Below, in pieces: positions 5,542-30,644 of a stretch of 30,644 nucleotides of DNA; within the stretch, counting starts at the first letter, position 1, and each line of letters begins with the position of its first letter. The notes beneath the pieces were generated by a model. It did not search any database. It saw only the letters and a list, made by a program, of their open reading frames with translations, and was not told where the DNA came from. The stretch is from a virus. Location of the stretch: the IMG/VR virus record IMGVR_UViG_3300035670_000938, positions 1 through 30,644 of that record; one strand, written 5' to 3'. A program made the translations under genes and the position numbers.

Positions 5542-8500
5542 TCACTTTCTAGTTCTCTTCTCAAATGCAATTCTACTAGCTAGAGCAGTTACATCGAGTG
5601 GCCTATTGGCCTCATTGACTGTGATATTAATATCGCCCTGATCAATATTGCTGCCAGAGGGATTGACAACAAATTCTCCGGCGTGAAGCTCGAACATGCC
5701 GCCCCTAGTGACGTAACCGCCTGTAGCCATCTGCGGAATACCATCGAACTGAGGCAGGACATCGCCCAAGCCGTTGAAGATTGCTGCCCTAAACCTTGTC
5801 CAAGCTGTGGTTGAGAAAGCCTGTGGCTGATTTGCAAGGCCATTCAGCTCTGCCAGATTTGCGGTGTTTTCCACAACAGCAGAGGTGTTGTTAACGAGAG
5901 AATCGATAAACTCGTTAAACGCCGGAGCAGCATCTGTTCCAAGAGTTGCTGTTAGAGCGTCGATCTGGGGTCCAAGAGTGATAAGCAGGTTTGCAAATGC
6001 AGCCGGGTCTCCACCTTGGAAAGCAGCGATAATCTGATTAATAAGATCAATTCCCTGCTGACCAAATCCACCCTCTTCAATTGATTTTGCAAACGTTCCT
6101 TCAGGATCATTGAGAGCGGCAAGAATTGTCGAAACAAGATCCTGACCCTCTGTGACAAGAGCATTTCCGGTTGCCTGAGCGACTGCAATCTGTCCCGCAG
6201 TGTCAGGTGTTCCGGCAATTTTGTTTACATTAGAGAGAATTCCGCCAAGTGTTCCCAAGCGTCCTGTTGTCGCCTGAGTTCTTGACTGAATAGCCTCAAG
6301 CTGCGCCTTGCGGTACTGGATCGTTAGAGCCTGAACATCCTGAGTATTTTCCTCGATTGATTTGCGCAGATCATCAAGTTTTTCCTCAAGCTGTCTTCTT
6401 TGCTCGTCGTTTAGATTTGTCCGATCAACTGCATTTAGCTCATTGAAGGCATTTTGCAGATCGGCACCTCTTGTCTGAAGGTTTGCTCTTCTGACACCAA
6501 TTACGTTATTTTCGTAATTGCTGTTGAGGACGCCAAGAGTTCTTTCTGCGAGGGCGGCACCCCTGTCCAGAATTGCCCTAGCCGAATCTCCCTTAGAAAG
6601 CTGACTCTCGATGGCAGAAATAGTTCCTGTTACGACTTCTGCCTGAGCCTGAGCTGCTGCTAGTGCTGCTTCTGCAACTCGAGTCTCAAGGTCATCTACG
6701 AGGCTCTGGAAGCGAGGATCTGCGGCGGCCAGTCTCTTGGCCTCTTCTAGACGACTGGTAAGGGTTGCGTAGTTTGAGCGTGCGGTTGCTGCTGCTGTCT
6801 CGAGAGATCCTCTAATTGCTGCAACAGGATTGCCAATATTCAGGAGAGCGCCGCCGAGTGATTCAATTGAGTATCCGAGATCAGCGAGACTCCTTTTCAA
6901 GCTTTCAAATGCGCTGATTCTCTCGTTAGCTCTAACTGCTCTGTTGGTTGCCTCTTCAAAAGCAGTCTTTTCGTTTTCGATGCGATTTCTTTCGGCTTCA
7001 AGAATTTCGTCGTCTTTTTCACCGATCTGCTTGAGAACATTCTCTAGCTCTGACTGAAGCTTGCCTCGCTCGAGAGCGTCCTTCTTTGTTTTCTTGAGCC
7101 TGTCCTCAATTCTTTTCTTTTCTTTCTCAAGCTGTTTAATTTTCTTTTTCTGTCCTTCATCTTCATCGTCTTTATTAAGCCGCTCAAGTTTTTTGTCAAT
7201 TTCTGCAATTGTCTTTGTGTCTTTGTCAATACTTGTCTTGAGTTCAGCAGGACTCTTGAATTTTTGAAGTGAAGCTTCAAGGCTTGCATAAGTGTCCTGA
7301 TACTGATTTCTAAGACCAATAAGATTGTCGCGCAGAGTTTTTTGCGCATTAGCCTCTAGAAGAGCAAGCTTTTCAGGATCGACCTCATCAGCTGTCGGTG
7401 TTCCGCTTACAAGCTTGCCACCGACATTCTTAAGTCCTTCTGCGGCGAGTCTGAAGGTTCTTGTAGTGGCATCAAAACTGTTCTTGATTGCGTTGTAGAA
7501 GTCTCCGAGAACTCCACCAGTTCCATCAGTTCCAGTGAGAACGCTTACCGAAGCGAGAAGAGTCTGAATATCTTTGCGATTCTTGAGATTGTCGAGCGCT
7601 TTCTTGAGCTTCTCAATTTCCTTCTTCTGCTTGTCGTCTTCTTTGCCTTCCTCAAGCTCCTTAATGGCTTTTTCTACTTCTTTGATTTTTTTAGTAATAC
7701 GCTCAGGAGTCAGAAGCCTTCTTGTCTGAGTATTAATCTTGTCAAAGACTTTTTCGATAAGCGTGTTGAACTCTTCAAATCCAGATGTAAGAGTCGGAAG
7801 TGTTCCAGCGATAACTTCGAAAGGGTTGCTTCTGAAAGATCTAGGGATCTGCGGAACTCCGCCACCCTTGAAAGAAGTCGGGCCACCAGTGAATCCCAAC
7901 ATTCCCTTCAGGCGATCAGCAGTAGTTCCAGCAATGCCAGCCACCATATTCTGCTGACGTCTATTCAGCACCCACTCGCCAGCGTGAGCCATAATCGGAA
8001 CCGCCTGTCCTTCTGGTCCGTCAATAGCTCCACCAGCAGCGTATTTCTTAAGACTATTTCCAACTTTCATTTTGTCATATTTTCTCTGAGCTGCTCTTTC
8101 TTTTCTCGCTAGTTCTAGCCTCTTTCTCTCTGAAGCTTTTCCTCCTCTAGCGAGGGCAAGGTGAACGTGATCTGTGTGATCACCAACGGCTGCAACGCTC
8201 TGACCATTCTTGATAGCTCCAAGAGGGTCATAGAAAAGTTCAAGAATATTTCTTCCGTATCTCTTGAGAGCAGCACGGAAGAAAGCTGCCATCTGAGCGG
8301 GTGATCCATAAGCATCGAGAGCACGGCCCTTGTAATGCCAAGAGCTTGGCGTGTGTACGCCGTCGCCCGGATATCCCTCATTGGTTGAGGAAATTGTCAG
8401 ACCAAGGCTTCGAGCGAGAGCTATTGCTTGGCGTAATGAGCCTGCAACGCCCTTACCAACACTTAGATCTCCGCCGCCAGTTACATCAACGGGTGTTTCT

Positions 8501-11500
8501 TTTTCAATTTTTTCATTTGCGGCTTTGCGGAATTTATCAAGGCCCTTGCTGACCATATCTCGCATAGCTTTACTGCCGCCCCTGATCTTGGGCATCGCAA
8601 TTTCTTCAGCTGCTGCACCAGCACTACCGGCTCTCCCTGAGAAGCTCACATAAACATTTGCTAGACCGGGCAGACGTAGCTTGTTAGCTGCTGTCTGCCA
8701 AATATCAACAGCACGAATCTTGCCGCCAAGACCGGGGCCACCAGATCCAATATCAAGCTTCTTCAGGTTTACGCTCTTGCCCTTATAACTGACCTTGATC
8801 ATGGTCTTGTAAGGAAGTCCGCCGAGAGCGTTGCCGATGCCGCCGTTTATTCCAAGCTCAGCCCAGTTATATGGTTGTCTTGACAGAGCATCACTCTTAT
8901 AGCCTTGTGCGTCGTTATAAACAGAAGCTGTGTAAACGCCGTCTCTGCCTCGTCCTCCTCGCGCAAGGCCCGGAGAGTTTCGCGGCCCTCCAGCGTGATA
9001 GCCGCTAGTCCTGTCGAACATATCGTCGAGACCAAATCCATATGTCTGACGAAGAGCAGGCTCAACAATTTTCTGCTGGCCCCAGTTAAGAACTGCTTCT
9101 CCACGACCAAGCATTGTGGGAACCATGTCGCGCCCACGCTCGCCTCGATTACCAATCCAGCCGCCTCCAGCACGACCGACAAATCCGCCTTCAGCCTTCT
9201 CTTCCTTGCGGATTTTCGGAACCTCGATTGTAAGATCAACGCCGTCTGCACCGACTGACTTAAGGGCGTCGTTAAGCGTTGTCTTTATGTACTTCGCGCC
9301 CTTATAAATTGCCATAGCAGCGTTTTCCATCTGATTAACGACAATATTTGAGACGTTAAGCATCTGGTTTCTTACGATGGCTGCTATGCCAAGGAAGTTA
9401 GTGCGGAAGCTGCGCCGCATACGCGCTATGTCCTGCTGTGCGCCGTTGACGAACCTATCTATGCTCCTGCCGCCGTTTTTGCGGATTTCTCCAAGCTTCT
9501 CTGTTACATAGTTGGCGGAATCTTTTGCCTGACGACGAAGCGTGCGCCAGTAGTTAGCAAGTTTTCTAGTGATTTCATCAGAAAGCTTGACCGTCTCAGG
9601 ATTAAATGAAGTCAGGAAATTTTCTGCATCAGCATTTGTTGCTTCAGAAGGCTTGTTGTTACTTTTTGCCCTTCCTCTAGTGACTCTCCTGCCTCGAGAA
9701 TCTACGCGCCTAGATCCTCCACCAGCAGCCCTTTCTCCAGAGCTAATGTCATCTCTCTCGGCTTCTCTTCTCGCCGCAGCAGCTTCTCTTTTTTGACTGG
9801 CTTCTTTTTCAGCAGCAGTCTGATAATTAATTTTTCCTACTTCTAAGAAGCTCGGAGCAAGATCATTAAATTTGTCAATCAGGAAGTCAATTCCGTCAAA
9901 AACAAATTTAAGAACATTGTCGAATACGCCCTTAACCTTGTCGGTGGCTGAGATAAAGAGTTTTTCAACAACTGATCCGAGAGCCGAGAACGGAGCAGCC
10001 AAAATGTCAAGTATTAATCCGCCAATACCTTGGAAGATTCTAAGAATACCTTCAGCAAGCTGGTTAAAGCCTTTTGCAAGTTGTTTGTTGTCGCCAGTAA
10101 AAAGTCCAACTATTATGTTGTAAAGACCAACAATAGTATCTACAATGCCAACAATTAATCTGGCAAGAGAGCGAATAACAGCGCCAACTACTTTAAAACC
10201 AGTTAAAAGAACGCCACCAAAAAGCGCAACAAGAATTTTAATTGCTGGAATTAAGACATCAGCAAGAACGTTGCCAATTGCTTTGAGCTTTTCTACAAAG
10301 TCTTCTCCGCCAGCATTGCCGCTGTCAAAAATTTCTTTTACGTCACGAATGACAAGATTTACTTCGTCTTTAATTGCTGAGAAGACACCAGAAATTGAGC
10401 TTGTAAAAGCTCTCCAAACGTCATCAAGCCTTCCTGCAACTGCAAGAAGAGCAGTGATTGCTGCGGTAATTGCGACAATAGCTGCAACTACCGGACCAGA
10501 TCTTAATCCTTGAAGCCCGGCTAATGCAGCTGCCCCGCCTCTAGTTCCAGCTATTCTGGCTCCAACTGAAGCTACTCCACGTACAGCTCTAGTCTGTCTA
10601 AGTCGGCCAACTCCCCTTGAGACTGTTTCTCTAACTCTTCCCAGTCTTCCTCTTCCGGGCGCATCAACAGGAACGACAGTCGGGCCGCCTCCATCTGCTG
10701 CCTCGCCAGCGGCTCTCCTGCCCGCTGTAGTGCCGGGAACACCAGTGTCCTGAGCTGCCTGCGCAGTGGCAATCGCTTGTTCTGTTTTTGCAATTCTTTC
10801 TCGAATTGATTCAAACTTTTTGAGCTGTGGAAAGAGCTGAGTTAGTTCAGAAAGAATTTTTCCGAAAACAGTAGTTTTAGTTGCAGCCCTGATCAGGAAT
10901 CCAACTGTGCTTGTAATCGGTGAAAGCGCACCGAGAAGGCGACCAAAGACCGAGCCGACGAGAGCTACGCCGACGACAAACTTAACAAGAGCTTCAAACG
11001 GCTCAAACGCGTCAATAAGCTTGACAATCGCATCCGTCAGAGATGTGACCGTTTTAAGGAAGAACCCAAATGCCGGTACGACAACTCTCGTAAGGAATGT
11101 GACAAAGTTTCTGACTGACTCAAGACCCTTCGGGCTAAAGAGATTGTCAATCAGATCTGCAATTGCAACAAGAAGAGGCTTAAAAAGCGGAAGAGTTTTT
11201 GTTCCGAAGTCAAAGAATCTCTTGAAGAACTCATTTGCTCTCGTGCCGGGAGTTCTAATTGCTTCAGCAAGATTGTTGAAACCTTCAGTTAGCTGATCGA
11301 GGATTGTGTTACCAGCAGTAATTCCTCCTGCTCCCTTGGGATCGATAAGAGCAAGAATTACGTTTCCTATCGACAGGAAGAGATCGACAAACTTGATCAG
11401 AGACTGCGCTCCGAGATCGAAGAAATCAGCAAGCGCGTTCTTACCTTCGACTGAGCTTGTGAACTCGCCCAGCTTCTGGACAAGATCGTTCACATATTCA

Positions 11501-13686
11501 AGGATCGTTCTGAATGCTGGCGCTCCAGCCTCAGCGATATCCAAGAAGACACGAGAAAGCGTAATAGCGATCTGCGTGATTGGCCTAAGATTCGTAGTGA
11601 ACTGCTTCGAAAGATTCAGAATCCTCGAGATAGTCTCAGGAGACAGAACAGCCTCAAAGATTGACCTGAACGAGTCTCCAAGAGTCTTGCTAGTAGATTT
11701 CCCAACCTCAATAAGTTCTTTGCTGCCAAGAATGTTTGTGATTCTTTTAACAGCAAATGTAAAGGCATTAGTAAGCGGACCAGTAATCTGCTGGGCGAAC
11801 TTGCGCCACCTCTCTTGCAGCACAACAAGCGCATCAAAAAGTCGTTTTTCTGCCCTAGAAAGATTGCCAACGAGGAAATTAAGCTTGCCAGCAGCGGCGC
11901 TTACGCTCTGACCAGCTGCATCTCCGGCCTGACGCGCCTGATCAAGAGCGCGCCGAGCTTCTTCAAGCTGCTTCTTGGCCTGTGTTACTTCCGGTGATCC
12001 TTCAATTCCTCCACGAGTTCGAGTTCTAAGATTGTCGCGAGTTCTGCCTAGCTGATTTGCCGCTTCCTCAGCAGCAATTTCGGCCTGAGAAACAGCAAAA
12101 CTTCCTGCTCCAGAAGTCAGCGCTTCGTTCAGATCTTCTCTGGATTTCTGCAATCCGAGAGTCTGCTTCCTTTCGGAGAGAATTAGATCTTCGAGAGCCT
12201 CACGAGCTTTTTTACGAGACTCAGTTACTTTATCCTGAGCTTCCTTGACTCTTTCTGTTGCTGCGACGACCTGATCAAGACCGTTGGCCTGACTGCGAGC
12301 TGCCTGACCACCTGAGTAGCTGGCCTGCTGCTGCTGAAGATTCTGCTGCTTGACAGCCTGATTGATCGCCTGAAATCTGTTGAGGAAAGTGGCAATAATG
12401 CCAAGAGCAGGAAGCGCTTGAGCAACACCAGCCGTCAGCGCTCCACCTATAGCTCCGCCTGCGGCTATTGCAGATGAAACTAATCCTGCGAGCGCGCCAG
12501 CAGCAATGGCTGCGCTCAACGCTAATTGCTGAAGAAAGACAGCAATAGCAAGAACTAAAAGACCACGAACGATGTTGTCGAAGGCAGCAATTCTCTTGCT
12601 GGCTTTATCTGCACCGTCAGAAAAAGCGTCGAAGGCCCCATTCAATAGAGCCATGATCCCAGCTGTTCTTATCAGGCTCGTGTTGTCGATATCAAATTCG
12701 ACCGGAACCTTTATGCCAAGTCCCTTTTCTAGAAGTTCCTCTGTAGCTTTGAGCCTTGCCACAGATCCTTCATCTATATCGAACTCAAGCTCTCTACGAA
12801 TGTTTACTTGTCCTACAAGATCTTCTTGCAGGCTTTCAATCTCGGCAATTGCGCTTTCTCTATCGACCTGAAGACGAGCTGTAATTACAGGATCTTGCCT
12901 TGTTTCTGGGCTAGTGAGTTTTTTGTCAATTTGCTGTACGTCGTTTTTGAGATCTATAAGGCGCTTAGTGTCTTTCTCAAAAGCATCAACATCATCTTTG
13001 CGTATTTTCTGACCGCGACGAACTGCTTCATTCGCATCATCTTGAGAAATTTCAAGATTTTTATTATTTTCAATTAGCTCATTAACTCTTTTAACTGAGT
13101 CTCTATAAGCTTCATCTTCGATTGAAGATAGTCTTTTTCTGGCCCTGCCCTCTTCTTCAATTAATTCAAGAACTTGTGCTCGTGAAGCAGCTTCATCCAG
13201 AGTAGCCCTAGAAAGTTCTCTTCTTAAAGCTAAAGACCTTTGTTCTTCTTTGAATGCTTCGGCAGTTGCAAGTGACTGATCTGCTGTTACATCTTTCTGC
13301 TTTTCCTGAGCTTCAGCAAGGTTTAGAGTTGCCTCTTCAAGAGCTTCAAGTGCCAAAAGCTTTTCAGCATCATTATCATTAGATTTTGTAGCTACTCTTG
13401 CGTAATTCTCTGCTGCCCTTTTTAGGGTGAGCTGAGCAGAAGCGACATCTTTTGTAAGTTTTATCTCTTTTTCTTTTTGCTTGTTTGCATCAATCGATGC
13501 TTTAGTGGCTCTTTCTTCTTCTTCTCTTAACCTCCTAGTCGCTTGGGTCAGATCGTCATAATCTGACTCAGCCTGCTGGAGAACTCGACTGAGCTGCTGA
13601 TTGTTTCCGATTGCCTTCTCAAAAGCGCCACGAGTATCGTCTCGCGCTTTGAGAATTAGTTCAACTATGTATCTCTCATCAGCCAT
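5542..13686 (-). CDS. Tape measure protein with peptidoglycan-degrading modules
   Basis: At 2714 residues this is the largest gene. It sets tail length; at about 0.15 nm per residue (rule of thumb) the tail would be near 400 nm. Residues 1-330 are charged coiled coil. Hydrophobic segments lie at about 370-435, 1052-1086 and 1145-1198, as expected for a protein that enters the membrane during DNA injection. Residues about 1590-1680 look like a double-psi beta-barrel (RAVDIWQTAANKL around Asp1661), and 1730-1850 like an M15/LAS metallopeptidase with S-x-H-x-x-G-x-A-x-D (Ser1782, His1784, Asp1791) and His1840-x-His1842. A GGx...GE[AWF]V[LV]N motif occurs three times (Glu1530, Glu1904, Glu2671). 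Coiled-coil segments are also found at about 1960-2200 and further on. The start follows AGAGAAG, 8 bases after the chaperone stop. Confidence 0.93.
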   Translation of the reverse strand: MADERYIVELILKARDDTRGAFEKAIGNNQQLSRVLQQAESDYDDLTQATRRLREEEERATKASIDANKQKEKEIKLTKDVASAQLTLKRAAENYARVATKSNDNDAEKLLALEALEEATLNLAEAQEKQKDVTADQSLATAEAFKEEQRSLALRRELSRATLDEAASRAQVLELIEEEGRARKRLSSIEDEAYRDSVKRVNELIENNKNLEISQDDANEAVRRGQKIRKDDVDAFEKDTKRLIDLKNDVQQIDKKLTSPETRQDPVITARLQVDRESAIAEIESLQEDLVGQVNIRRELEFDIDEGSVARLKATEELLEKGLGIKVPVEFDIDNTSLIRTAGIMALLNGAFDAFSDGADKASKRIAAFDNIVRGLLVLAIAVFLQQLALSAAIAAGALAGLVSSAIAAGGAIGGALTAGVAQALPALGIIATFLNRFQAINQAVKQQNLQQQQASYSGGQAARSQANGLDQVVAATERVKEAQDKVTESRKKAREALEDLILSERKQTLGLQKSREDLNEALTSGAGSFAVSQAEIAAEEAANQLGRTRDNLRTRTRGGIEGSPEVTQAKKQLEEARRALDQARQAGDAAGQSVSAAAGKLNFLVGNLSRAEKRLFDALVVLQERWRKFAQQITGPLTNAFTFAVKRITNILGSKELIEVGKSTSKTLGDSFRSIFEAVLSPETISRILNLSKQFTTNLRPITQIAITLSRVFLDIAEAGAPAFRTILEYVNDLVQKLGEFTSSVEGKNALADFFDLGAQSLIKFVDLFLSIGNVILALIDPKGAGGITAGNTILDQLTEGFNNLAEAIRTPGTRANEFFKRFFDFGTKTLPLFKPLLVAIADLIDNLFSPKGLESVRNFVTFLTRVVVPAFGFFLKTVTSLTDAIVKLIDAFEPFEALVKFVVGVALVGSVFGRLLGALSPITSTVGFLIRAATKTTVFGKILSELTQLFPQLKKFESIRERIAKTEQAIATAQAAQDTGVPGTTAGRRAAGEAADGGGPTVVPVDAPGRGRLGRVRETVSRGVGRLRQTRAVRGVASVGARIAGTRGGAAALAGLQGLRSGPVVAAIVAITAAITALLAVAGRLDDVWRAFTSSISGVFSAIKDEVNLVIRDVKEIFDSGNAGGEDFVEKLKAIGNVLADVLIPAIKILVALFGGVLLTGFKVVGAVIRSLARLIVGIVDTIVGLYNIIVGLFTGDNKQLAKGFNQLAEGILRIFQGIGGLILDILAAPFSALGSVVEKLFISATDKVKGVFDNVLKFVFDGIDFLIDKFNDLAPSFLEVGKINYQTAAEKEASQKREAAAARREAERDDISSGERAAGGGSRRVDSRGRRVTRGRAKSNNKPSEATNADAENFLTSFNPETVKLSDEITRKLANYWRTLRRQAKDSANYVTEKLGEIRKNGGRSIDRFVNGAQQDIARMRRSFRTNFLGIAAIVRNQMLNVSNIVVNQMENAAMAIYKGAKYIKTTLNDALKSVGADGVDLTIEVPKIRKEEKAEGGFVGRAGGGWIGNRGERGRDMVPTMLGRGEAVLNWGQQKIVEPALRQTYGFGLDDMFDRTSGYHAGGPRNSPGLARGGRGRDGVYTASVYNDAQGYKSDALSRQPYNWAELGINGGIGNALGGLPYKTMIKVSYKGKSVNLKKLDIGSGGPGLGGKIRAVDIWQTAANKLRLPGLANVYVSFSGRAGSAGAAAEEIAMPKIRGGSKAMRDMVSKGLDKFRKAANEKIEKETPVDVTGGGDLSVGKGVAGSLRQAIALARSLGLTISSTNEGYPGDGVHTPSSWHYKGRALDAYGSPAQMAAFFRAALKRYGRNILELFYDPLGAIKNGQSVAAVGDHTDHVHLALARGGKASERKRLELARKERAAQRKYDKMKVGNSLKKYAAGGAIDGPEGQAVPIMAHAGEWVLNRRQQNMVAGIAGTTADRLKGMLGFTGGPTSFKGGGVPQIPRSFRSNPFEVIAGTLPTLTSGFEEFNTLIEKVFDKINTQTRRLLTPERITKKIKEVEKAIKELEEGKEDDKQKKEIEKLKKALDNLKNRKDIQTLLASVSVLTGTDGTGGVLGDFYNAIKNSFDATTRTFRLAAEGLKNVGGKLVSGTPTADEVDPEKLALLEANAQKTLRDNLIGLRNQYQDTYASLEASLQKFKSPAELKTSIDKDTKTIAEIDKKLERLNKDDEDEGQKKKIKQLEKEKKRIEDRLKKTKKDALERGKLQSELENVLKQIGEKDDEILEAERNRIENEKTAFEEATNRAVRANERISAFESLKRSLADLGYSIESLGGALLNIGNPVAAIRGSLETAAATARSNYATLTSRLEEAKRLAAADPRFQSLVDDLETRVAEAALAAAQAQAEVVTGTISAIESQLSKGDSARAILDRGAALAERTLGVLNSNYENNVIGVRRANLQTRGADLQNAFNELNAVDRTNLNDEQRRQLEEKLDDLRKSIEENTQDVQALTIQYRKAQLEAIQSRTQATTGRLGTLGGILSNVNKIAGTPDTAGQIAVAQATGNALVTEGQDLVSTILAALNDPEGTFAKSIEEGGFGQQGIDLINQIIAAFQGGDPAAFANLLITLGPQIDALTATLGTDAAPAFNEFIDSLVNNTSAVVENTANLAELNGLANQPQAFSTTAWTRFRAAIFNGLGDVLPQFDGIPQMATGGYVTRGGMFELHAGEFVVNPSGSNIDQGDINITVNEANRPLDVTALASRIAFEKRTRK

Positions 13687-17330: not shown

Positions 17331-17821
17331 GAGAAAGAAGTTGAACCGAACGGGCGCGGAAACTCCTGCGGAGAAGGAGTCAGGAACGGATCGTTCTGTG
17401 TGCTGCTAGAAGCACGGGGAGCGCGAGAAAGTCTGTTGTAGTCAATAAGCGGAAGAACCTCAGGCTCAAGCTTTTTAATCTCGCTAAGCAGATAAGTGCG
17501 AAGATTTCTTAATTCTGCTGTGCGCGAAGGATAAGCCACATCTTCTGATGTGCCAGTGGCAGTGGTAGAAATCGGCTGCGACATCCAGAAATCGATGCCC
17601 GGATTAATAAGTTCAAGAGCAATTAACTTTGATGTGTAGTCAATAACGACTAATGCCATCGTGTTTTCTGCTGGAGGAGTTTCTCCGAAAATTCTCTCCT
17701 TTACGACATTAATAGTGTCCTGAAGAAGAGTTTCTCCATAGCGAGAGTCCTTTTGCAGGGCATCCCAAGTAACCGGCATGATCGCCTTGGTGCGATCAGC
17801 GATTTCGCCAGTAACCGGCAT
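17327..17821 (-). CDS. Head-tail connector candidate
   Basis: The 164-residue protein begins with a helical region (TKAIMPVTWDALQKDSRYGE and onward, through about 45). A beta segment ALVVIDYTSKLIALELI follows, and TAELRNLRTYLLSEIKKLE forms a helix around 103-121. A Pro/Ser-rich tail closes the protein (SPQEFPRPFGSTSFS). I do not recognise a named family. Its place after the capsid genes and before the terminator-like gene, with TAATG and ATGA overlaps on both sides, is that of a head-tail adaptor or stopper. Function is inferred from order. Confidence 0.5.
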   Translation of the reverse strand: MPVTGEIADRTKAIMPVTWDALQKDSRYGETLLQDTINVVKERIFGETPPAENTMALVVIDYTSKLIALELINPGIDFWMSQPISTTATGTSEDVAYPSRTAELRNLRTYLLSEIKKLEPEVLPLIDYNRLSRAPRASSSTQNDPFLTPSPQEFPRPFGSTSFS

Positions 17822-18090
17822 TACTTAGCTGCCGCTGTCGTCTTTTTCTTAGCGACTGGCTTCTTGGCTGGAGCCTTCTTAGGCTCCTCAAGAGGCTCTA
17901 GAAGATTAGAAAGCTCACCCTTCGCGGCGCGCTCTGCGTCACGGGGGAGCATCTGGTCCTCGGAGATGAGTGAGCCAGCGGTGTAGCTCACCCCCTCCGA
18001 TTCCCAGAACTCAATACCGTTATTAGCGGTACGAAGACGAATAGGACGAGGAAAAGAAACGTCAACCTTCGTTTTATATGACTTAGGCAT
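17821..18090 (-). CDS. Small protein with Lys/Ala/Pro-rich tail, head-tail region
   Basis: The 89-residue protein has a short beta-rich N-terminus (VDVSFPRPIRLRTANNGIEF) followed by an unstructured basic tail with a run of Lys, Ala and Pro (about 69-89, KKAPAKKPVAKKKTTAAAK). Basic low-complexity tails of this type often touch DNA or acidic surfaces. It lies 27 bases after the capsid gene and overlaps the next gene by one base (TAATG). It may be a head-tail connector component or a minor capsid protein. No family recognised. Confidence 0.55.
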   Translation of the reverse strand: MPKSYKTKVDVSFPRPIRLRTANNGIEFWESEGVSYTAGSLISEDQMLPRDAERAAKGELSNLLEPLEEPKKAPAKKPVAKKKTTAAAK

Positions 18091-18117
18091 CAGTCTCTCT
18101 TCCTCGTCCGAAATTCA

Positions 18118-19179
18118 TCAGTCCTCGGTGTCAGCCGACAGGAAGCACTCCGGGTGAATGATGCGCACGATACGTGCAGCGCCCTCACGCAGGTAGCGGT
18201 TCTTTGTCATGTGATCGAGGATGACCTCGCTCTGCGGGCCGGGGAGCAGGCTGGTTGAATCGTAACCAGCGCTGATCTCAACGCCACCATTGAGCGTGTC
18301 AGCGATGTTCTCGCCCTCGACGTTGTACTCAGTTGTGATGAGCACCTTGTTCTCGGGGAGGTAGCGCGTGTGCGCGGCCTCTGAGCGATCAGCACCTGAC
18401 TCCTGCGGGCGATAACCGGCGTCGTGGACAATGAACTGCGTGCCAGCAGCAAGAAGCTGAGCAACCTGATCAAGCGTGGCACGGAACGGCTGACCATCAG
18501 GCACGTTGAAGTAGCCCTTCAGAGACTCGCTCTGAATGATCTTCTTGGCAGTAGCCGAGGTCAGGTGGATACGAGTACCGAGATGACCTGAGTCATCGGC
18601 AACAACCTGCTGCCAAGCCTCAAGATCCGTGACCGGATCTGAGTTAGCGGTATCGCTCCATGAGGTGGAAACAGTCGGCTTGTGACCGGGCAGGAAGCCA
18701 TAGTCAATAGCAAGCTGGCTGTTAGTACGCGGGTAGGTAATCGTCAGCGAACCGTTGACGAAAGCCTGCCAGCGCATCCACTCAGTAAGGCGCTCAAGAC
18801 GACGGCGCAGAATCTGTCCGCGCTCGACAATCGCGAGTCCCTCTGAGTTGCGGATCATCTCATCCGAAGATGAGAGGCGCATGTACTGCTCTGAATTGAT
18901 GCGGTGCATCTCCTCGAGCTGAGCCAGCTCGATGATCGCCTCGCGGCGCTCGCCAACCGGCATGTCGATGAGTGCGGGCATCGCGTTCGGAGCCTTGAAC
19001 TGACCGATTCCGAACGAGTATGTGCGAGCAACATCCATGCGCGCCATACGTGAGTTGATGTTGACTGACGGAGCAATCTGCTCACCAAGGAAGGGAGCCT
19101 GCTCGAGAGCCGTATCAACCTGCTCATTGATCAGGGTAGTAAGAACTGCCTGATCATAAATGTCGAATTTATGAGACAT
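18118..19179 (-). CDS. Major capsid protein, lambda gpE-like
   Basis: The 353-residue protein fits the lambda E-type capsid family (HK97 fold). Supporting segments are TALEQAPFLGEQIAP, MARMDVARTYSFGIGQFKAP, a long charged helix (about 84-135 with MRLSSSDEMIRNSEGLAIV), WMRWQAFVNGSLTI, IHLTSATAKKIIQS and the C-terminal GPQSEVILDHMTKNRYLREG with VRIIHPECFLSA. It follows the decoration protein and the protease/scaffold in the same order as lambda C-Nu3-D-E. Its length is close to that of lambda gpE. Codon choice is noticeably C/G-ending compared with neighbours, as expected for an abundant protein. Confidence 0.88.
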   Translation of the reverse strand: MSHKFDIYDQAVLTTLINEQVDTALEQAPFLGEQIAPSVNINSRMARMDVARTYSFGIGQFKAPNAMPALIDMPVGERREAIIELAQLEEMHRINSEQYMRLSSSDEMIRNSEGLAIVERGQILRRRLERLTEWMRWQAFVNGSLTITYPRTNSQLAIDYGFLPGHKPTVSTSWSDTANSDPVTDLEAWQQVVADDSGHLGTRIHLTSATAKKIIQSESLKGYFNVPDGQPFRATLDQVAQLLAAGTQFIVHDAGYRPQESGADRSEAAHTRYLPENKVLITTEYNVEGENIADTLNGGVEISAGYDSTSLLPGPQSEVILDHMTKNRYLREGAARIVRIIHPECFLSADTED

Positions 19180-22700: not shown

Positions 22701-22925
22701 ATGAACAAGTTCGAAGATAATCCGTTTGACGGAGAGCTAGAGGTCATCGCAACTTTGCGAGACCGGGCTATCGAGGCAGCGGCCATGCAGGAGATGACCC
22801 GTGAAGAACTAATCACGGCGCTTCAGTATGCGCTTGCTCAGGGCATTGACATCAATGCTCTAAGTTCTGCTTCGGGACTTACCCCGAATCAAATTCGGGA
22901 ACTTCCCAATCTAGTTATTTCTTAA
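22701..22925 (+). CDS. Small HTH-like protein opposite the late operon, possible regulator
   Basis: The 74-residue protein is acidic and helical. Its C-terminal half (about 40-70: YALAQGIDINALSSASGLTP, then NQIRELPNL) reads like a helix-turn-helix, with an ALSSASGLTPNQIREL helix pair resembling phage repressor or sigma-type HTHs. AAGGTGGT at 22687-22694 is a near-perfect Shine-Dalgarno sequence. ATG 22701 has better spacing than ATG 22695, so the exact start is uncertain by two residues. It is the only rightward gene within more than 20 kb of leftward genes and has its own promoter next to the start of the structural operon. A role in controlling that operon is an inference. It converges on the LuxR-type gene ending at 22935. 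Confidence 0.7.
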   Translation: MNKFEDNPFDGELEVIATLRDRAIEAAAMQEMTREELITALQYALAQGIDINALSSASGLTPNQIRELPNLVIS

Positions 22926-23685: not shown

Positions 23686-23988
23686 CTATGAGATCGGAGT
23701 ATGAAGTGAAACCCAAGCAGAAACGATGCTCTGCAAAGCTCTCATCCTTCGCTCATACTCGGTGGCGCTTTCCGAATCTCCATTAACGACGAGCGAATCG
23801 TAATAAGGTTCAATGCCTTCAACTAGCTCGTTGCGAATATCTGCCAGCCTGCGATAGATGTCATTGGGCGCAGAACCATTCTGGCCAATAATCATTTCCG
23901 CATAGCTGGAAAATGAATCTGCGAATTCTGCCCTGTTGCAGGCTTGGGCTGCGATCCGGGTGAGATCTCTGCCAAGCTCTGTGTCCAT
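23686..23988 (-). CDS. Small helical protein after the phosphoesterase gene, unknown
   Basis: The 100-residue protein is helical, with MDTELGRDLTRIAAQACNRA at the start and YERRMRALQSIVSAWVSL at the end. I know no family. The upstream TGA overlaps ATG 23988 (TGATG), so it is translated together with the metallophosphoesterase and may work with it. About 80 bases with a T/A-rich stretch separate it from the next leftward gene; no convincing terminator is visible there. Confidence 0.6.
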   Translation of the reverse strand: MDTELGRDLTRIAAQACNRAEFADSFSSYAEMIIGQNGSAPNDIYRRLADIRNELVEGIEPYYDSLVVNGDSESATEYERRMRALQSIVSAWVSLHTPIS

Positions 23989-25202
23989 CACAGCTTCGGA
24001 ATGCCTGCGGTGGGCGTGATAAGGCGGGTGTCTGTTAGACGCTCACGCTTCTCGTCGAATGTCAGAAGCCACTGGGCGGGCGGATCGCCTCCACCAAAGT
24101 TCTTCTGAACCCACTCGTCCGTTCCCTTGAGCGAACCGTTACCAATCACGCGACCTGCCTGAACGACATTTGCCTGATGGAAGTGTCCGAAGATGAAGTG
24201 GTCAATGGGCATACGGTGTGAAGCCTGAATATTGTTGACTCGCCGGACGACGCCTCCCCAAGGTACGCCGGGCATACTACTGCGAATTCCATCCCCATGC
24301 CAGCAGAAAACAATTCTGCCTGCGATCTCGTGAATGATGGAACCCTTGCCGATCTTGAAGTCAACCGAATCGTATTTCTTCAAGTACTCCTTGGCGAAGG
24401 TGTAGGCAATCCAGTCACCGTTGTTGTGAGGCATTTTTGCGGCTGGCGCTTTTGTGAGCCTCGGGTGGTTTCCCTCTACGCCGATGACGTTGATGTTTCC
24501 GTAGTGAGGCAGAAGCTCCTCGACAATCTGGCCCATGAGCATTCCCATCTTGATCGCCTGCTCAGCCAGAGGAAACTCATTGGTGATCGTGATCTCGTCG
24601 TGATTGGCACCCGAACACTGATCGCCCAAGAAAGCGATGTCCAGCCCGGTCAGATGAGGAGAATTCTTCTTATGCGACAGAAGAGCGTCAATCACCTCCT
24701 GTACTCGTTCCTCCATAATTTCCCACGAGTATTCGTTCAGGAAGTTGACCGTATCGGGATCGACGTACTCACCGCCATGAAAGTCTGAGAGGAGCACCAT
24801 CTGGCGATGATGAGCGCCGTCCTTCTTCTTAGGCTCGACCGCCTTGAACTTGCGGCGAGGCTCGAGATTGGCCAGAGCGTCTTCGACAGCCGCCACCACG
24901 CGGGCGGAGTGAACAGACTCTTTCTGCTTTTTGCGCAGGGCAGCCTTCAGCTCGCGGTTCTGAGAATCGAGAATCTCTTCATTAGAGACTTCCTCTTCCT
25001 CAATGGCGGCGATGGCCTCTGGCGAGTAGTAATCGCCCTTGTGCTGAGACTTGGCGTTTGGCTTGATGCCGTGACGCTTGCAGAAGTCTGAAACTGTTCT
25101 GCGCGCCACCCCATACTTCAGACCCACTTGCTCCTGAGTCATTTGATCTTGCTCGATGAGCTTTCGTACTTCATCGAGGTGCGGGTCTAAGCGTGATGCC
25201 AT
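23988..25202 (-). CDS. HTH-metallophosphoesterase fusion
   Basis: The 404-residue protein has an N-terminal helix-turn-helix (about 22-46, TQEQVGLKYGVARRTVSDFC), a charged linker (60-130), and a calcineurin-type phosphoesterase. The metal ligands are visible in order: Asp140-x-His142 (SDFHGG), Gly193-Asp194, Gly244-Asn245-His246 (GNHPR), His302 (CWHGD) and Gly339-His340-x-His342 (GHFH). All expected motif ligands are present, so it is probably active. Related enzymes include Mre11/SbcD nucleases and nucleotide phosphoesterases, but the coiled SbcC partner is not seen here. The HTH could target it to DNA. The start has GGGGAG about 10 bases upstream, downstream of a terminator. Substrate unknown. 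Confidence 0.85.
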   Translation of the reverse strand: MASRLDPHLDEVRKLIEQDQMTQEQVGLKYGVARRTVSDFCKRHGIKPNAKSQHKGDYYSPEAIAAIEEEEVSNEEILDSQNRELKAALRKKQKESVHSARVVAAVEDALANLEPRRKFKAVEPKKKDGAHHRQMVLLSDFHGGEYVDPDTVNFLNEYSWEIMEERVQEVIDALLSHKKNSPHLTGLDIAFLGDQCSGANHDEITITNEFPLAEQAIKMGMLMGQIVEELLPHYGNINVIGVEGNHPRLTKAPAAKMPHNNGDWIAYTFAKEYLKKYDSVDFKIGKGSIIHEIAGRIVFCWHGDGIRSSMPGVPWGGVVRRVNNIQASHRMPIDHFIFGHFHQANVVQAGRVIGNGSLKGTDEWVQKNFGGGDPPAQWLLTFDEKRERLTDTRLITPTAGIPKL

Positions 25203-25733: not shown

Positions 25734-26843
25734 CTACCGGCTGTAGGTCAGCTGATCGTAAGAGACCTTACGATTGCGCGGCAGTCGCCGGTTCCAGTGC
25801 TCAATGAGCGCCTGCGCGAGCTGATGATGCTTGTCGAGCAGGTGCGGGTAGTCCTCGAAGGCGAACTTCGGCATATGCTCCTTCCATCGCGCCCTGTCGC
25901 CCTCACGGGTGTTCGGGTTGCGCTGGAAGATGTACACAGCTGCATATGTGATCGCCTTGAGCGAGCGGCTACGGAACGCCAACGGATTGGTCGTCTTGTT
26001 GCCGAACGCCTGAATCAGCTCTACCAGCTCATCTGGCTTGCTGAGATCGAATCCCTGCTCAGAAGCCTTGGTGTAGAACGCCAAGCTGCTGTTCATGGAG
26101 TCGAACGTGTAGGCACCGATGCACTGAGCGGCAGTGATGGGCGTCATACGACGCTTATCGCCACCAGCCAGATGCGGAGAGATCATGTCCGACCACGGAT
26201 GGTCGTCGCTCGTCAGAGCGTCCTGAATGTAATGCTCCAGAGGAGAATCACCAGTCAGAATCGTCTGATCGCTCTTGATCTTGCGCTGCTTGCGCTGATC
26301 GGTGAACATGACCTTCGCCTGTTCGAAGGTGCGCCGCTTGACGACAACCTCGATAGGCACACGGGCGATGATGCTCCCGACAGACCGATGAGAACCATCG
26401 GTTACGAGAGCATGATCTACGCCATTCTCATCCTTGACGATGGAGACGTTGATCGGGGGAAACTCACGGCCCTCAATAAGGGCGCGAGCCACATTCCGTG
26501 CGTGTACCTTTGAATCACGAGCATCCCGCTGAAAGCCCTGCACTCGATCCTCGCCAATCGAAATGACCGGCACTTCGAGTGATGCGACCTGCTCGGGAGT
26601 GACTACGTAATAGCCTTCCTTCATCGGGAAAGGCTCAGGAGTAAGTCCGTCAGTTACGTGTCCGGGCTTCTTCCTCTTGATTGATGACTTCCCTGCGGGT
26701 GCTTCGAGATTAATATTTCGAATATCCGAAGAGAGGTCGTAGACCGTAGGCCAGTCAGCCTTAGTCATAAGTCCTCCGTTTTCTTGGGTTGTTTCTTTCT
26801 TACTGGACGGCTTCTTGGCCGCCTTCTTTTTGGTTGTGGGCAT
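25734..26843 (-). CDS. DGQHR / ParB-like domain protein
   Basis: The 369-residue protein has a Lys-rich N-terminus (about 1-20) and a ParB/DGQHR-type core (about 80-190): FQRD (104-107), then a helix NVARALIEGREFPPINVSIV and the signature VTDGSHR (Asp149, Gly150, His152, Arg153), followed by VPIEVVVKR. This core occurs in DndB, DGQHR proteins and ParB-like nucleases, which bind DNA or hydrolyse nucleotides. The remaining 180 residues are helical and unrecognised. It has its own perfect-consensus promoter and an AGGGAGGG ribosome site, so strong early expression is likely. Possible roles are DNA modification control, defence against host restriction, or replication; none is shown here. Confidence 0.75.
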   Translation of the reverse strand: MPTTKKKAAKKPSSKKETTQENGGLMTKADWPTVYDLSSDIRNINLEAPAGKSSIKRKKPGHVTDGLTPEPFPMKEGYYVVTPEQVASLEVPVISIGEDRVQGFQRDARDSKVHARNVARALIEGREFPPINVSIVKDENGVDHALVTDGSHRSVGSIIARVPIEVVVKRRTFEQAKVMFTDQRKQRKIKSDQTILTGDSPLEHYIQDALTSDDHPWSDMISPHLAGGDKRRMTPITAAQCIGAYTFDSMNSSLAFYTKASEQGFDLSKPDELVELIQAFGNKTTNPLAFRSRSLKAITYAAVYIFQRNPNTREGDRARWKEHMPKFAFEDYPHLLDKHHQLAQALIEHWNRRLPRNRKVSYDQLTYSR

Positions 26844-26921: not shown

Positions 26922-27157
26922 CTGCTGATCCACTCCGCGTGATAATCGCTCTCAAGCGTGTTGCGGGCGAAATCAATTTCGTGAGCCTGAGCGATGCGAC
27001 GATGCTCGATGAATTCCTTTGCGGTAATAACGAGCACGGCGTCATCTTCTGACTCGGCATCGAGATCGAACAGAGTTATTTCCAACTCGTCGATATCGGT
27101 GACGATATTGCGAACTACATTTCTGCTGAGAACGATATATCTACTGTTCTCCGCCAT
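26918..27157 (-). CDS. Small acidic protein, unknown
   Basis: The 79-residue protein contains two acidic segments (DIDELEITLFDLDAESEDDA) between helical stretches; no family is recognised. ATG 27157 has GGAAGG at good spacing inside the end of the upstream gene, so it is preferred to GTG 27166. It overlaps that gene by 17 bases, and its stop lies in the -35 of the next promoter. It is the last of five tightly packed genes. Confidence 0.6.
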   Translation of the reverse strand: MAENSRYIVLSRNVVRNIVTDIDELEITLFDLDAESEDDAVLVITAKEFIEHRRIAQAHEIDFARNTLESDYHAEWISS

Positions 27158-27599
27158 CTGACTCACCTTCCTTTTTGTCTTCGATTGCGCCGAACTGAGG
27201 GCTGCGCGACTCGAATTCTCCGGTCAGAGGCTCATTCTCCGGCTTTTCTGCCGAGATGACCTCATCGGGATCAATTTCTGCATCGCTGATCATTTCCTCG
27301 TCGGCTGTGTCAACGTGAATATTTTCTGAAGGCTTCCACTGGCCTGACTTGATGATGTTGAGAGGATTCTCGGCCCTCGCGGTCTTTTTCATGAACTCGC
27401 TTGGCGAATACTTGCCGGAATCGTCCTTGATCACTGCATCCTCGCCAAAGACCTCACGCACCATCCTCATGACTTCCTTCTTGCGAGAGTCCACGCGACC
27501 ATTGATGGCCGCGATGATCTCGTCAAGCTCCTCGTCGTACTTACCGTCTGATATGGCGCGAATCATCGCGTCCAGTCTGGGCCTTCTTTCACTGCTCAT
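27141..27599 (-). CDS. Acidic protein with N-terminal helical domain, unknown
   Basis: The 152-residue protein has a helical N-terminal domain (about 1-50, with LDAMIRAISDGKYDEELDEI and SRKKEVMRMVREVFGEDAVI) and a long acidic, probably disordered C-terminal half. No named family. It overlaps both neighbours (11 and 17 bases) in the leftward early gene group. Confidence 0.6.
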   Translation of the reverse strand: MSSERRPRLDAMIRAISDGKYDEELDEIIAAINGRVDSRKKEVMRMVREVFGEDAVIKDDSGKYSPSEFMKKTARAENPLNIIKSGQWKPSENIHVDTADEEMISDAEIDPDEVISAEKPENEPLTGEFESRSPQFGAIEDKKEGESDGGEQ

Positions 27600-27987
27600 C
27601 TTCGGGGAACTCCTTCTCGATCACGATCTCTTCCTTGATCTTCTTCCAGTCGTAGCCTCTGGCCTCCATCGCTTCCTTTGAATCTAGGATCATAGCGTTG
27701 GTGGCAAGGTCGAGGATCTCCTCTTGGCTCTTGCTGGCGCAGATGGCCTGATCTACGGCCAGAATCACGAACTCGTTGCGCTCAGTGTCGTAGGAGCCTC
27801 CGACGACCGCATAATCCACATAGTCGCCGTTCTCGTTGATGATTGAACGGACGACAGTGAATGCACTCTCAAGTTCATCATCGGTGACGTAAGGCTCGTT
27901 CTCCATCTCACGGTCCTCATCGAGAACGGTTGTGAGAAGCCGGAGAAAGTCAGTGAGCAAAAGCCAGTGTCTAGAAAATTCAGTCAT
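27589..27987 (-). CDS. Small early-group protein, unknown
   Basis: The 132-residue acidic protein has an alpha-beta pattern (YAVVGGSYDTERNEFVILAV at about 59-78, then helices with EEILDLATNAM). No known family or catalytic motif. ATG 27987 follows GGAAAGAAGG and overlaps the upstream gene by 8 bases (ATGACTGA). It belongs to the five-gene coupled group behind the promoter at 28883-28912. Confidence 0.6.
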   Translation of the reverse strand: MTEFSRHWLLLTDFLRLLTTVLDEDREMENEPYVTDDELESAFTVVRSIINENGDYVDYAVVGGSYDTERNEFVILAVDQAICASKSQEEILDLATNAMILDSKEAMEARGYDWKKIKEEIVIEKEFPEDEQ

Positions 27988-28366
27988 TGCGCCTTCTTTC
28001 CTTGTACTTCCACTTTCTTAAACCTTCAATTTCGTACATTTGCCCAGTTTCTTTAATTGCCCGCTCGAGATTGTGTCTCTCGTCGCGCAGCTTCTTGAAC
28101 TTCTTCTTCTTGCCCTTCTTCATCGCCTTGCGCTCTGCGATAAGCATTTCCTGAAGCGTGTCAGCCCAATCCATACTGTCTGAGAGGTTGTAACGCCGAT
28201 TACCGTGCTTCATAAGCCGAGCGGCGTTAGCGGCTGAGCGAGCCTCAGATTGCTTCTTGCTTTCCTTACGCGCCTTGCGGTCGAGTTTCTTGAACTCGTT
28301 TACCCATTTCTTATATTCGTCATTCTCTCCGAAAAAGTTTGAGTAAAAATCACCTTTATCACTCAT
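27980..28366 (-). CDS. Basic, helical early protein, unknown
   Basis: The 128-residue protein is Lys/Arg-rich and helical throughout. It has DRKARKESKKQSEARSAANA at about 29-48, AMKKGKKKKFKKLRDERHNL at about 81-100, and a KWKYKERRRND end. Its charge suggests binding to nucleic acid, but no fold is recognised. It starts inside the end of the FtsK-gamma-like gene (8-base overlap) and is coupled to it. Confidence 0.6.
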   Translation of the reverse strand: MSDKGDFYSNFFGENDEYKKWVNEFKKLDRKARKESKKQSEARSAANAARLMKHGNRRYNLSDSMDWADTLQEMLIAERKAMKKGKKKKFKKLRDERHNLERAIKETGQMYEIEGLRKWKYKERRRND

Positions 28367-28850
28367 TTTCTTCCTTCTTGCCGAAACTGACTACGACATT
28401 GCCCTTTGAAGGCAGGTTTGTCGGAAATCCGCCCTCGCTGGGGTCGTATTCACTGATGTAACCGTCCTTTATGAGCTGATCGACAATCTTTGCGGTTCGC
28501 TTCTTGCCGATCCTGAAGAACGTCATTATCTTGTTCTTGTTGATCTTGTCGCGATGGCTTACGTACTTGACCACCTGCGAGTAGAGAGGATCTTGCTTCT
28601 TGACCTTTGAACGCACAGGCTCTACAGATGACTGCAAGACAAGAGCGTTTTCGCCCTCGAATCGGATACGGACATAAAGCCCGCGCTTACGTGCGGTGGT
28701 AAACGCGAGAGTGCGAAAAGCAGTACGAGAGCACTCGAAGTCCACTCCCTCTTGCATTCGGTAGATGCCACCGTCAAGGATCTTGTCCCAGTCGTACTTG
28801 GGCTTGCGTCCCTTGTTCTTATTCCAGTCATATACAGCTATTTCTTGCAT
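28359..28850 (-). CDS. Protein with FtsK-gamma-like winged helix
   Basis: The 163-residue protein heads the five-gene leftward group. Residues about 90-140 (DPLYSQVVKYVSHRDKINKN, KIMTFFRIGKKRTAKIVDQL, IKDGYIS) closely resemble the gamma winged helix of FtsK, in which an (F)RIGxxRAxxIIDxMEExGI pattern reads KOPS DNA motifs. No ATPase or membrane part of FtsK is present. The middle segment (about 40-75, FRTLAFTTARKRGLYVRIRF) adds a small alpha-beta domain. It is likely a DNA-binding regulator or replication protein. ATG 28850 follows AAAGGAG and lies about 25 bases after the expected transcription start. Confidence 0.7.
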   Translation of the reverse strand: MQEIAVYDWNKNKGRKPKYDWDKILDGGIYRMQEGVDFECSRTAFRTLAFTTARKRGLYVRIRFEGENALVLQSSVEPVRSKVKKQDPLYSQVVKYVSHRDKINKNKIMTFFRIGKKRTAKIVDQLIKDGYISEYDPSEGGFPTNLPSKGNVVVSFGKKEENE

Positions 28851-28882
28851 TTTTGCTCCTTTCTTAAAAAGCTCGTCCTAAT

Positions 28883-28912
28883 ATCTTACCATGTGCTTTA
28901 TCAGGTTGTCAA
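28883..28912 (-). promoter_or_regulatory. Strong sigma-70 promoter for the leftward early group
   Basis: On the minus strand TTGACA (28912-28907), an 18-base spacer and TAAGAT (28888-28883). The expected start is near 28876. Repeated CCGTCG-like elements lie directly upstream. Confidence 0.75.
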
Positions 28913-28914
28913 AC

Positions 28915-28991
28915 CCGTCGCCGTCGAGTGGCTGTTTGGTCCGTCGCGCTCGCGTGTCCATTCCGTTCGCGGTCGGGTGTCCATTTCGTCG
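28915..28991. repeat. CCGTCG-like elements spaced about 22 bp upstream of a promoter
   Basis: CCGTCG occurs at 28915, 28921 and 28941, CCGTTCG at 28963, and TCGTCG at 28986. The last copies are in near-repeats of GTGTCCATT(C/T)CGT (28954 and 28977). Spacings of about 22-23 bp equal two helical turns, which suggests protein-binding sites facing one side of the DNA next to the -35 element. Confidence 0.4.
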
Positions 28992-28997
28992 GCCCGC

Positions 28998-29031
28998 AGG
29001 CGGATCGAGGGCCTAACGGCCTCGCCCGCCT
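28998..29031. other. Stable GC hairpin in gene-free region
   Basis: AGGCGG/CCGCCT (6 bp) extends by CGAG-GCC/GGCCTCG with a one-base bulge around a TAAC loop. TTT follows on the plus strand. For a leftward transcript it could form the 3' end of a small RNA; for a rightward one, a weak terminator. Confidence 0.45.
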
Positions 29032-29244
29032 TTAGAAGGGCCGAGCGGTTGCCACACAGTTCCCGCTCAGCAATCCCCCGTTGAACCTAGTTAACTTACT
29101 TTCCGCATCAGGGAAAGAGGTCATGTGGAGGGATGTCGGGCCTTCTAAGTGATATATGGCAGTTGCTGCTCACTTCCTGCCAATTTGCCCCCGTTGGCTG
29201 CATTCTCTTGCACCGAGCAGAGGGATTTACTACCCCACAAAACA

Positions 29245-29277
29245 TTGCCGCGTCCTTCACGGCGAAATCTGCGGCAA
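29245..29277 (-). ncRNA. Putative structured leader or small RNA, 5' hairpin
   Basis: TTGCCGC and GCGGCAA form a 7-bp stem exactly at the predicted 5' end of a leftward transcript from the promoter at 29285-29313. No gene starts for about 400 bases downstream, and another strong hairpin occurs at 28998-29031. A small RNA of roughly 280 bases, or a long leader of the early group, would fit. Confidence 0.4.
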
Positions 29278-29284
29278 CACAAAC

Positions 29285-29313
29285 AGTTTAGCTAAGATCT
29301 TATTAATTGTCAA
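29285..29313 (-). promoter_or_regulatory. Sigma-70 promoter reading left into gene-free DNA
   Basis: On the minus strand TTGACA (29313-29308), a 17-base spacer and TAAACT (29290-29285). The expected start is near 29278. The first gene in that direction starts at 28850, so the transcript has a leader of about 430 bases or is a separate RNA. Confidence 0.65.
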
Positions 29314-29780
29314 ACGGATTGGCTAACTCACCTCCTTCCTAGGCAGAAAATACCGCAGCAGATAGCTGCGGAACGTCTACTGCGGGAAAAAGGGGCGCAT
29401 TTCCGGGTTCGGGAGGAAATTAATCGTAGACATAGTGTGTCTGGGATTAATGGCCGGGGGAGGAGGCGAAAATTGTAGCTACAGGATAATCCTATCCGAC
29501 GCAGACAGCGGAGGATGAGATACCCGAAAACCCAATAACTATGGGGAGGAAATGGGTGGGGTAGTTGGTTCATCGTGGTGATGGGGGGTCTGTACCTTGT
29601 GTGTACGTGATCAGTAGCCGCAGCGAGTAGTTACTAGCGGGCGAACCTCACAAGTGCCGGGAACCGCCCCGGAAGCAGGGAAGGGTACATAGCGTGAGCG
29701 GGAATCACGCGGGAGCGCTGGAGAGCGTCACTATACAACCACTAACTAACCGCGCTACTCACGCGGGAAGGGAGTCAGAA
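29314..29780. other. Gene-free, purine-rich stretch with hairpins
   Basis: No convincing gene is present. Perfect stem CCGCAGC/GCTGCGG with an AGATA loop lies at 29353-29371. A two-part stem ATTAAT...ATTAAT enclosing AGAC/GTCT lies at 29419-29451. GGGAGGAAAT is repeated at 29411 and 29544, and TCACGCGGGA at 29705 and 29759. Long purine runs are seen on the plus strand. It may hold a 5' leader for the rightward gene, a small RNA or a replication/packaging site; nothing decides between these. Confidence 0.4.
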
Positions 29781-30227
29781 ATGGCCAAAGTCGGACGGTC
29801 ACGAAATGACGACAAAGTGGACGCCGCCCTGCGGGGCAGTCTGAAATGGGGAGACCCCGGACGGACATACCCGCTGGTGCCGGGTATCAACGGGTTTCCG
29901 CTGATGCCGAGCGTAAATCCGAAACCTCGCGAGGGTATGCGGATCAGTCGCTCCAAGTGGCGCCGGGATCGCGCAGCGACGACCGGAAACCTGGCCTTTG
30001 GCCACGAGTACGATTACGTCGAAATCGTGGACGGGGAGCGAATCGACCGGGCGACGGGTCTGCCTTGCGGATACGTCGAACCGAGCGAGGACATCCGCGA
30101 CCGCGACTGGGCGAGCCAGATGGCGTGCGAGAACCGGGCCGAGAACCGCAAGCGGATGCTCCGCAGGCAGCGGGAGGCGCTGGAAATCGCTCGCATCCGG
30201 GCAGCACGGGCAGCGCACCACAAGTAG
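29781..30227 (+). CDS. Basic protein in GC-rich right module, unknown
   Basis: The 148-residue protein has a charged N-terminus (MAKVGRSRNDDKVDAALRGS), a middle with YPLVPGINGFPLMPSVNPKP, and a strongly basic helical C-terminus (ENRKRMLRRQREALEIARIR). No family recognised. ATG 29781 has GGAAGGGAG at good spacing; an in-frame GTG at 29694 also has AGGGAAGGG and would add 29 residues. Codon use is GC-rich compared with the genes left of 28900. It is followed five bases later by a strong hairpin terminator. An open frame on the opposite strand is a shadow. Confidence 0.65.
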   Translation: MAKVGRSRNDDKVDAALRGSLKWGDPGRTYPLVPGINGFPLMPSVNPKPREGMRISRSKWRRDRAATTGNLAFGHEYDYVEIVDGERIDRATGLPCGYVEPSEDIRDRDWASQMACENRAENRKRMLRRQREALEIARIRAARAAHHK

Positions 30228-30231
30228 CACG

Positions 30232-30256
30232 AGCCGGGGGCAGCACGCCCCCGGCT
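30232..30256 (+). terminator. GC-rich hairpin terminator
   Basis: AGCCGGGGGC and GCCCCCGGCT form a perfect 10-bp stem with an AGCAC loop, starting 5 bases after the stop of the 29781 gene. Only a short T run follows (TTCTG), as in many actinobacterial terminators. Confidence 0.75.
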
Positions 30257-30311
30257 TCTGCCTGCCCTCAAACCTTCTCACGCTCTCCGCTCACACGCGC
30301 ACACGCCCGCT

Positions 30312-30363
30312 ACGGCGCACGGCGCGAGGCTTCACGGCGCACGGCTCAACGGCGCACGGCGCA
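30312..30363 (+). repeat. Pairs of 7-bp ACGGCGC tandem repeats
   Basis: ACGGCGC units start at 30312, 30319, 30334, 30349 and 30356, with a variant ACGGCTC at 30341. They form three tandem pairs, separated by one extra 8-base unit and one extra A. The pattern resembles an iteron or protein-binding array in non-coding DNA. Confidence 0.6.
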
Positions 30364-30424
30364 ACGAAACTTGTTCCCTAACAGGAGGTTCGGTTATCCG
30401 ACTTTCCTAGCGCAGTAACGCGGC

Positions 30425-30471
30425 GCGCCGGTGCTGCGATGCGGGGATCGCGTCCCGCTAGGCACCGGCGC
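30425..30471. repeat. 10-bp inverted repeat with inner stem
   Basis: GCGCCGGTGC (30425-30434) and GCACCGGCGC (30462-30471) pair perfectly. Inside them GCGAT and ATCGC form a second stem around GCGGGG. It could be an RNA structure in the leader of the next gene or a DNA cruciform site. It is too short and differently built to be a tRNA. Confidence 0.5.
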
Positions 30472-30481
30472 AATGTCTTCG

Positions 30482-30533
30482 GCGCAATACGGCGCGCCAT
30501 CCAATCGTTTGCGCAATACGGCGCAACGGCGCA
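30482..30533 (+). repeat. Direct repeats GCGCAATACGGCGC plus ACGGCGCA units
   Basis: GCGCAATACGGCGC occurs at 30482-30495 and 30511-30524, 29 bp apart. Further ACGGCGCA units are at 30518 and 30526. They continue the ACGGCGC theme of the array 130-170 bp upstream. Confidence 0.55.
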
Positions 30534-30549
30534 GGCTTTCTGCCTGCGC
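30529..30549 (+). other. Hairpin just before the ribosome binding site of the next gene
   Basis: GCGCAGGC and GCCTGCGC form a perfect 8-bp stem with a TTTCT loop, ending a few bases before GAAAGGA. It may insulate or regulate translation of the gene starting at 30568. Confidence 0.5.
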
Positions 30550-30567
30550 GACAGAAAGGATCAGTCT

Positions 30568-30644
30568 ATGGACGACTGTTTCGCAACGGCTAACGCGGCC
30601 GGAATGTCCGTTCGCGTCGGCTACAAGGGGTCGAAGGATTCGAC
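30568..30644 (+). CDS. Start of a rightward gene, cut by the window edge
   Basis: ATG 30568 follows GAAAGGA at good spacing. The 25 visible residues (MDDCFATANAAGMSVRVGYK and GSKDS) stay open to the end. Too little is present to name a family. It lies in the same GC-rich rightward module as the 29781 gene. Confidence 0.55.
   Translation, partial: MDDCFATANAAGMSVRVGYKGSKDS

Follow-up and report, generated by a model that had tools for sequence, protein, structure and literature searches.

Probable tandem promoters and a possible long untranslated leader ahead of the leftward genes of a tailed phage fragment

The combined results suggest that the gene-free stretch at 28851-29780 serves as control region for the block of leftward genes in a tailed phage. 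Here P1 and P2 would act as tandem host-type (sigma-70) promoters, P1 lying about 400 bp upstream of P2, and the P1 RNA would be an untranslated leader ahead of the block rather than a separate gene product; we put the chances of this whole reading at about even. Such a leader is most likely an ordinary one, possibly regulated, the latter suggested by candidate regulator sites near P1 and P2.

Results

Divergent gene blocks flank a gap without convincing genes

The window analysed here is the whole of virus record IMGVR_UViG_3300035670_000938 (30,644 bases), which is a fragment of a tailed phage. Its leftward genes, among them those for the capsid, tape measure and exonuclease-like proteins (Table 1), run from 28850 to the left end with one small exception (22701-22925, + strand). 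This exception encodes an HTH-like small protein against the direction of the operon, has homologues close to the same genes in at least seven relatives, and is preceded by an inverted repeat (22514-22528/22602-22616). A gap of about 930 bp (28851-29780), in which a convincing gene is absent, separates the divergent blocks, with a rightward gene (29781-30227) on its far side.

Table 1. Coordinates of the features described in this study
Feature	Position	Strand	Details
Promoter P1, TTGACA-N17-TAAACT	29285-29313	-	10 of 12 consensus matches; predicted RNA start about 29278
Promoter P2, TTGACA-N18-TAAGAT	28883-28912	-	Strict pattern match; TG before second hexamer
Third strict site, TTGACA-N17-TATAAT	26921	leftward	Upstream of gene 25734-26843
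Proposed P1 leader RNA	28851-29278	-	About 430 nt, untranslated; extent predicted from absent terminator; ends at first gene
5′ hairpin, TTGCCGC/GCGGCAA	29245-29277 (arms 29277-29271 and 29251-29245)	-	7-8 bp; head of predicted RNA
Strong GC-rich hairpin	28997-29031	-	61-nt fold -35.9 kcal/mol, z -3.0; no U-tract after it
Perfect 10-bp palindrome TAAGATCTTA in P1 spacer	29293-29302	.	Sole copy in window; possible operator
Two tandem 23-bp repeats	28944-28989	.	Just upstream of P2; repeat core nowhere else in window
45-codon ORF	29108-29245	-	AAGGA Shine-Dalgarno-like, 7 nt before ATG; probably not a gene
First gene of leftward operon	28359-28850	-	FtsK gamma-like winged-helix domain (Pfam PF09397, residues 85-138); RBS AAAGGAG
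Exonuclease-like gene	23988-25202		Leftward block
Major capsid protein (MCP) gene	18118-19179		Leftward block
Tape measure protein gene	5542-13686		Leftward block

Predicted host-type promoters read towards the leftward block

The original prediction had placed a good promoter, TTGACA-N17-TAAACT, reading left from within the gap, and the same element was recovered on the minus strand as P1. Across the window, the pattern TTGACA-N16-18-TAnnnT occurs at three sites against 0.45 expected, a number reached in 1 of 100 shuffles. Since these strict sites (26921, 28912 and 29313) are enriched, all read leftward, and in two of three cases stand directly upstream of genes, P1 is probably a real promoter. 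P2 lies 33 bp upstream of the start codon of 28359-28850, where there is also a strong ribosome-binding site. The third site has a counterpart in the related phage L003 (L003:4062), at the same place upstream of the homologue of 25734-26843; the phage group therefore appears to use host-type promoters of the same form. We consider it unlikely that P1 is a chance match or silent, with hairpins that are features of the DNA or arose by accident in GC-rich intergenic sequence. A consensus match alone proves nothing, a relaxed scan of 27000-30644 returned 4 sites against 1.8 expected, and the rank of the RNA fold (see below) is unremarkable, but the enrichment of the strict pattern, its restriction to one strand and its position upstream of genes argue for a real promoter.

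The palindrome in the P1 spacer and the tandem repeats next to P2 could be regulator sites. Two GGGNAGGG sites (29678-29685 and 29765-29772, + strand) lie upstream of the rightward gene, and the window holds one more. We take GGGNAGGG to be KOPS, the target of FtsK gamma; with an FtsK gamma domain encoded by the first leftward gene, self-regulation is possible.

The region downstream of P1 lacks a coding signal

P1 had also been predicted to read into DNA without genes, which codon use bears out: coding-like codon use was absent in every ORF tested in the gap (28851-29780), although the measure is not decisive, given that the rightward gene 29781-30227 receives a low score as well. The ORF of 45 codons (29245-29108), the best of the small candidates, begins 33 nt past the predicted RNA start and has an AAGGA at good spacing before its ATG, so that P1 might drive a small protein or leader peptide; against this, its codon-use score was lower than those of all real gene fragments of 45 codons, and we regard this explanation as very improbable.

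The predicted RNA carries two local hairpins and no U-tract terminator

The predicted RNA opens, as first proposed, with a 7-bp hairpin, which has a pair probability of 0.8-0.92 in the full 428-nt leader and a z of only -1.8 as a 50-nt fold. The very stable hairpin expected about 280 bases into the RNA was likewise found, about 250 nt beyond the 5′ hairpin and about 85 nt upstream of the P2 -35 box; in the full leader, most of its paired positions tested have a probability of about 0.9-1.0. The segment that holds it (28985-29045; -38.4 kcal/mol) ranks first in stability among 3823 steps of 61 nt along the minus strand of the contig. The RNA 28985-29278 (294 nt) folds at -124.2 kcal/mol (z -3.1 versus shuffles) but ranks only 13th among 136 segments of equal length from the same contig, in which segments within or beside genes reach a fold z of -9.6; stability alone therefore marks no functional RNA here.

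Two further pairings were rejected. A long closing helix of the RNA 5′ end with 29059-29050, present in the 294-nt fold, has a probability of 0 in the full leader, where a 13-bp inverted repeat (29032-29044/29136-29148) reaches a pairing probability of at most 0.13. The strongest fold of the gap lies outside the P1 leader, at 29340-29520 (121-nt + strand fold, z -4.2), a region that includes the imperfect palindrome ATTAATCGTAGACATAGTGTGTCTGGGATTAAT. Within the contig sample, the most extreme fold z (-9.6) belongs to 18044-18109 (- strand), where a 17-bp inverted repeat (88%) covers the ribosome-binding site of 17821-18090, right after the capsid gene; this element was not obvious by eye in the relatives.

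No U-tract terminator was found on the minus strand from 29247 to the gene start at 28850, the strong hairpin included, and without a U-tract this hairpin is therefore no mark of a transcript end. Because of this, and because the first leftward gene begins about 430 nt past the P1 start, a long leader fits the arrangement: P1 precedes the operon, and no U-tract terminator intervenes between it and the first gene. The P1 RNA, untranslated over some 430 nt, would continue through P2 into the leftward operon, with the 5′ hairpin probably protecting the RNA end and the strong hairpin probably slowing or attenuating P1 transcription rather than ending it. We infer the firing of P1, the read-through and the roles of the hairpins from what is observed, namely the sequence, the promoter match, the stability of the hairpins, and the absence of a U-tract and of a coding signal. 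Three points count against the leader: so strong a hairpin, even without a U-tract, could end transcription in some bacteria, the whole fold (13 of 136) is unexceptional for the contig, and L003 has no such leader (see below).

Alternatively, P1 may yield a small RNA in its own right, about 285 nt long, whose end would be made by termination or processing at 29031-28997 and which would target phage or host RNAs, an explanation that we hold possible but doubtful. It would suit the top rank of the strong hairpin on the minus strand, the position of this hairpin ahead of the P2 -35 box and the z of the whole-RNA fold. However, P1 is not matched by an intrinsic terminator, as the strong hairpin is without a U-tract, the window contains no Rfam match at gathering score (the best weak match in the region has an E-value of 1.1), and a conserved counterpart was not found in relatives. 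We therefore prefer the leader to the small RNA. Of the pair offered by the original prediction, a small RNA or a long leader, the leader gained from the missing U-tract and from the gene about 430 nt downstream, and the small RNA was weakened. It also seems quite unlikely to us that the transcript represents a novel, structured phage RNA (about 280 nt, absent from Rfam) with a role in trans or in the control of elongation into the leftward operon.

Relatives share structural genes and not the gene-free region

Searching with the MCP returned 32 viral loci and none in bacterial or archaeal genomes. The IMG/VR relatives, whose capsid proteins are 74-76% identical, include L003 (a 91.9 kb contig) and a 124 kb record with the loci L005 and L052, whose gene order seems continuous from one contig end into the other. 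Synteny with the relatives extends to gene 27141-27599 and stops short of the P1 leader region, so that phages at this level of capsid identity have structural genes in common but not the gene-free DNA around P1. Searches with the gene-free region in phage DNA, plasmids and MCP-related virus records gave nothing above chance, nor did searches of viral contigs for exact pieces of P1 and of the strong hairpin. When the leader was aligned locally to the L003 and L052 gene-free regions, it scored no higher than shuffled sequence did; no alignable relative of the P1 leader was found in any collection searched. Used as bait, the protein of 28359-28850 found a single match, distant and partial, and had no hit among bacterial and archaeal genomes; those of 29781-30227, 27589-27987 and 23988-25202 gave zero matches. 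At the head of the L003 leftward operon, the promoter TTGACC-N17-TACGAT directly adjoins the start codon and such a leader is absent, indicating that a long leader is not general in these phages.

Several short elements recur among the relatives. GGAAATGGGTGGGG or a near copy occurs at 29548-29561 (+) in the window, 1742-1729 (-) in L003 and about 5107-5092 (-) in L052, in each of the three related phages within a gene-free region and on the strand opposite the structural genes, with marginal alignment significance. Two relatives contain only three copies each of the motif RGGGTGGGG, which mostly cluster at the GGAAATGGGTGGGG region. ACAGAAAGGATCAG is identical just upstream of a start codon in the window (30550-30563, +) and in L052 (about 4574-4561, -). 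L003 also carries a tRNA-like element of 62 nt (925-986, -) with a T-arm and an acceptor-like stem, too short for a tRNA; it scores 21.5 bits with the tRNA-Sec model, below the cut-off, and ARAGORN finds no tRNA there.

Discussion

With its two good promoters, the region as it stands is a control region of the ordinary kind. If transcribed, the P1 RNA would be the regulatory leader in a group of uncultured phages (relatives' contigs up to 124 kb) that lacks close cultured relatives, and would be a candidate for control by RNA.

In some parABS mycobacteriophages, such as Alma and LadyBird, prophage replication makes use of a noncoding RNA (PMC7157519). The P1 RNA is similar in that it, too, would be a phage RNA without a corresponding ORF, and by analogy with those parABS mycobacteriophages that lack RepA it could be an RNA-based primer or origin of replication. 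Besides this precedent (PMC7157519), the gene-free RNA lies in a gap rich in repeats and hairpins, and gene 25734-26843 has a weak ParB-like match. However, this match has an E-value of only 4.7e-4, the L003 homologue of the gene looks weakly DGQHR-like, neither ParA nor a parABS cassette was seen among the proteins scanned (part of the gene set), and nothing ties the RNA to replication, making this explanation extremely improbable.

The put RNAs of HK022 are about 70 nt long, form two stem-loops and lie behind early promoters, putL just downstream of PL and putR about 270 nt downstream of the PR start (PMC9378689). Compared by arrangement and not by sequence, the P1 leader also has a stem-loop right behind a phage promoter, whereas its second, strong hairpin follows only some 250 nt later. 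Within about 75 nt, where a put-like pair would lie, the first stem-loop has a probability of about 0.9, and the minimum-energy fold of the full leader has no second local one. Neither the put RNAs nor the parABS origin RNA is supported as a family for the P1 RNA.

An operon headed by tandem phage promoters and a long untranslated 5′ leader is a general arrangement. The proposed leader resembles it in having two host-type promoters of the same direction, the distal of which adds a structured leader, here as predicted from sequence.
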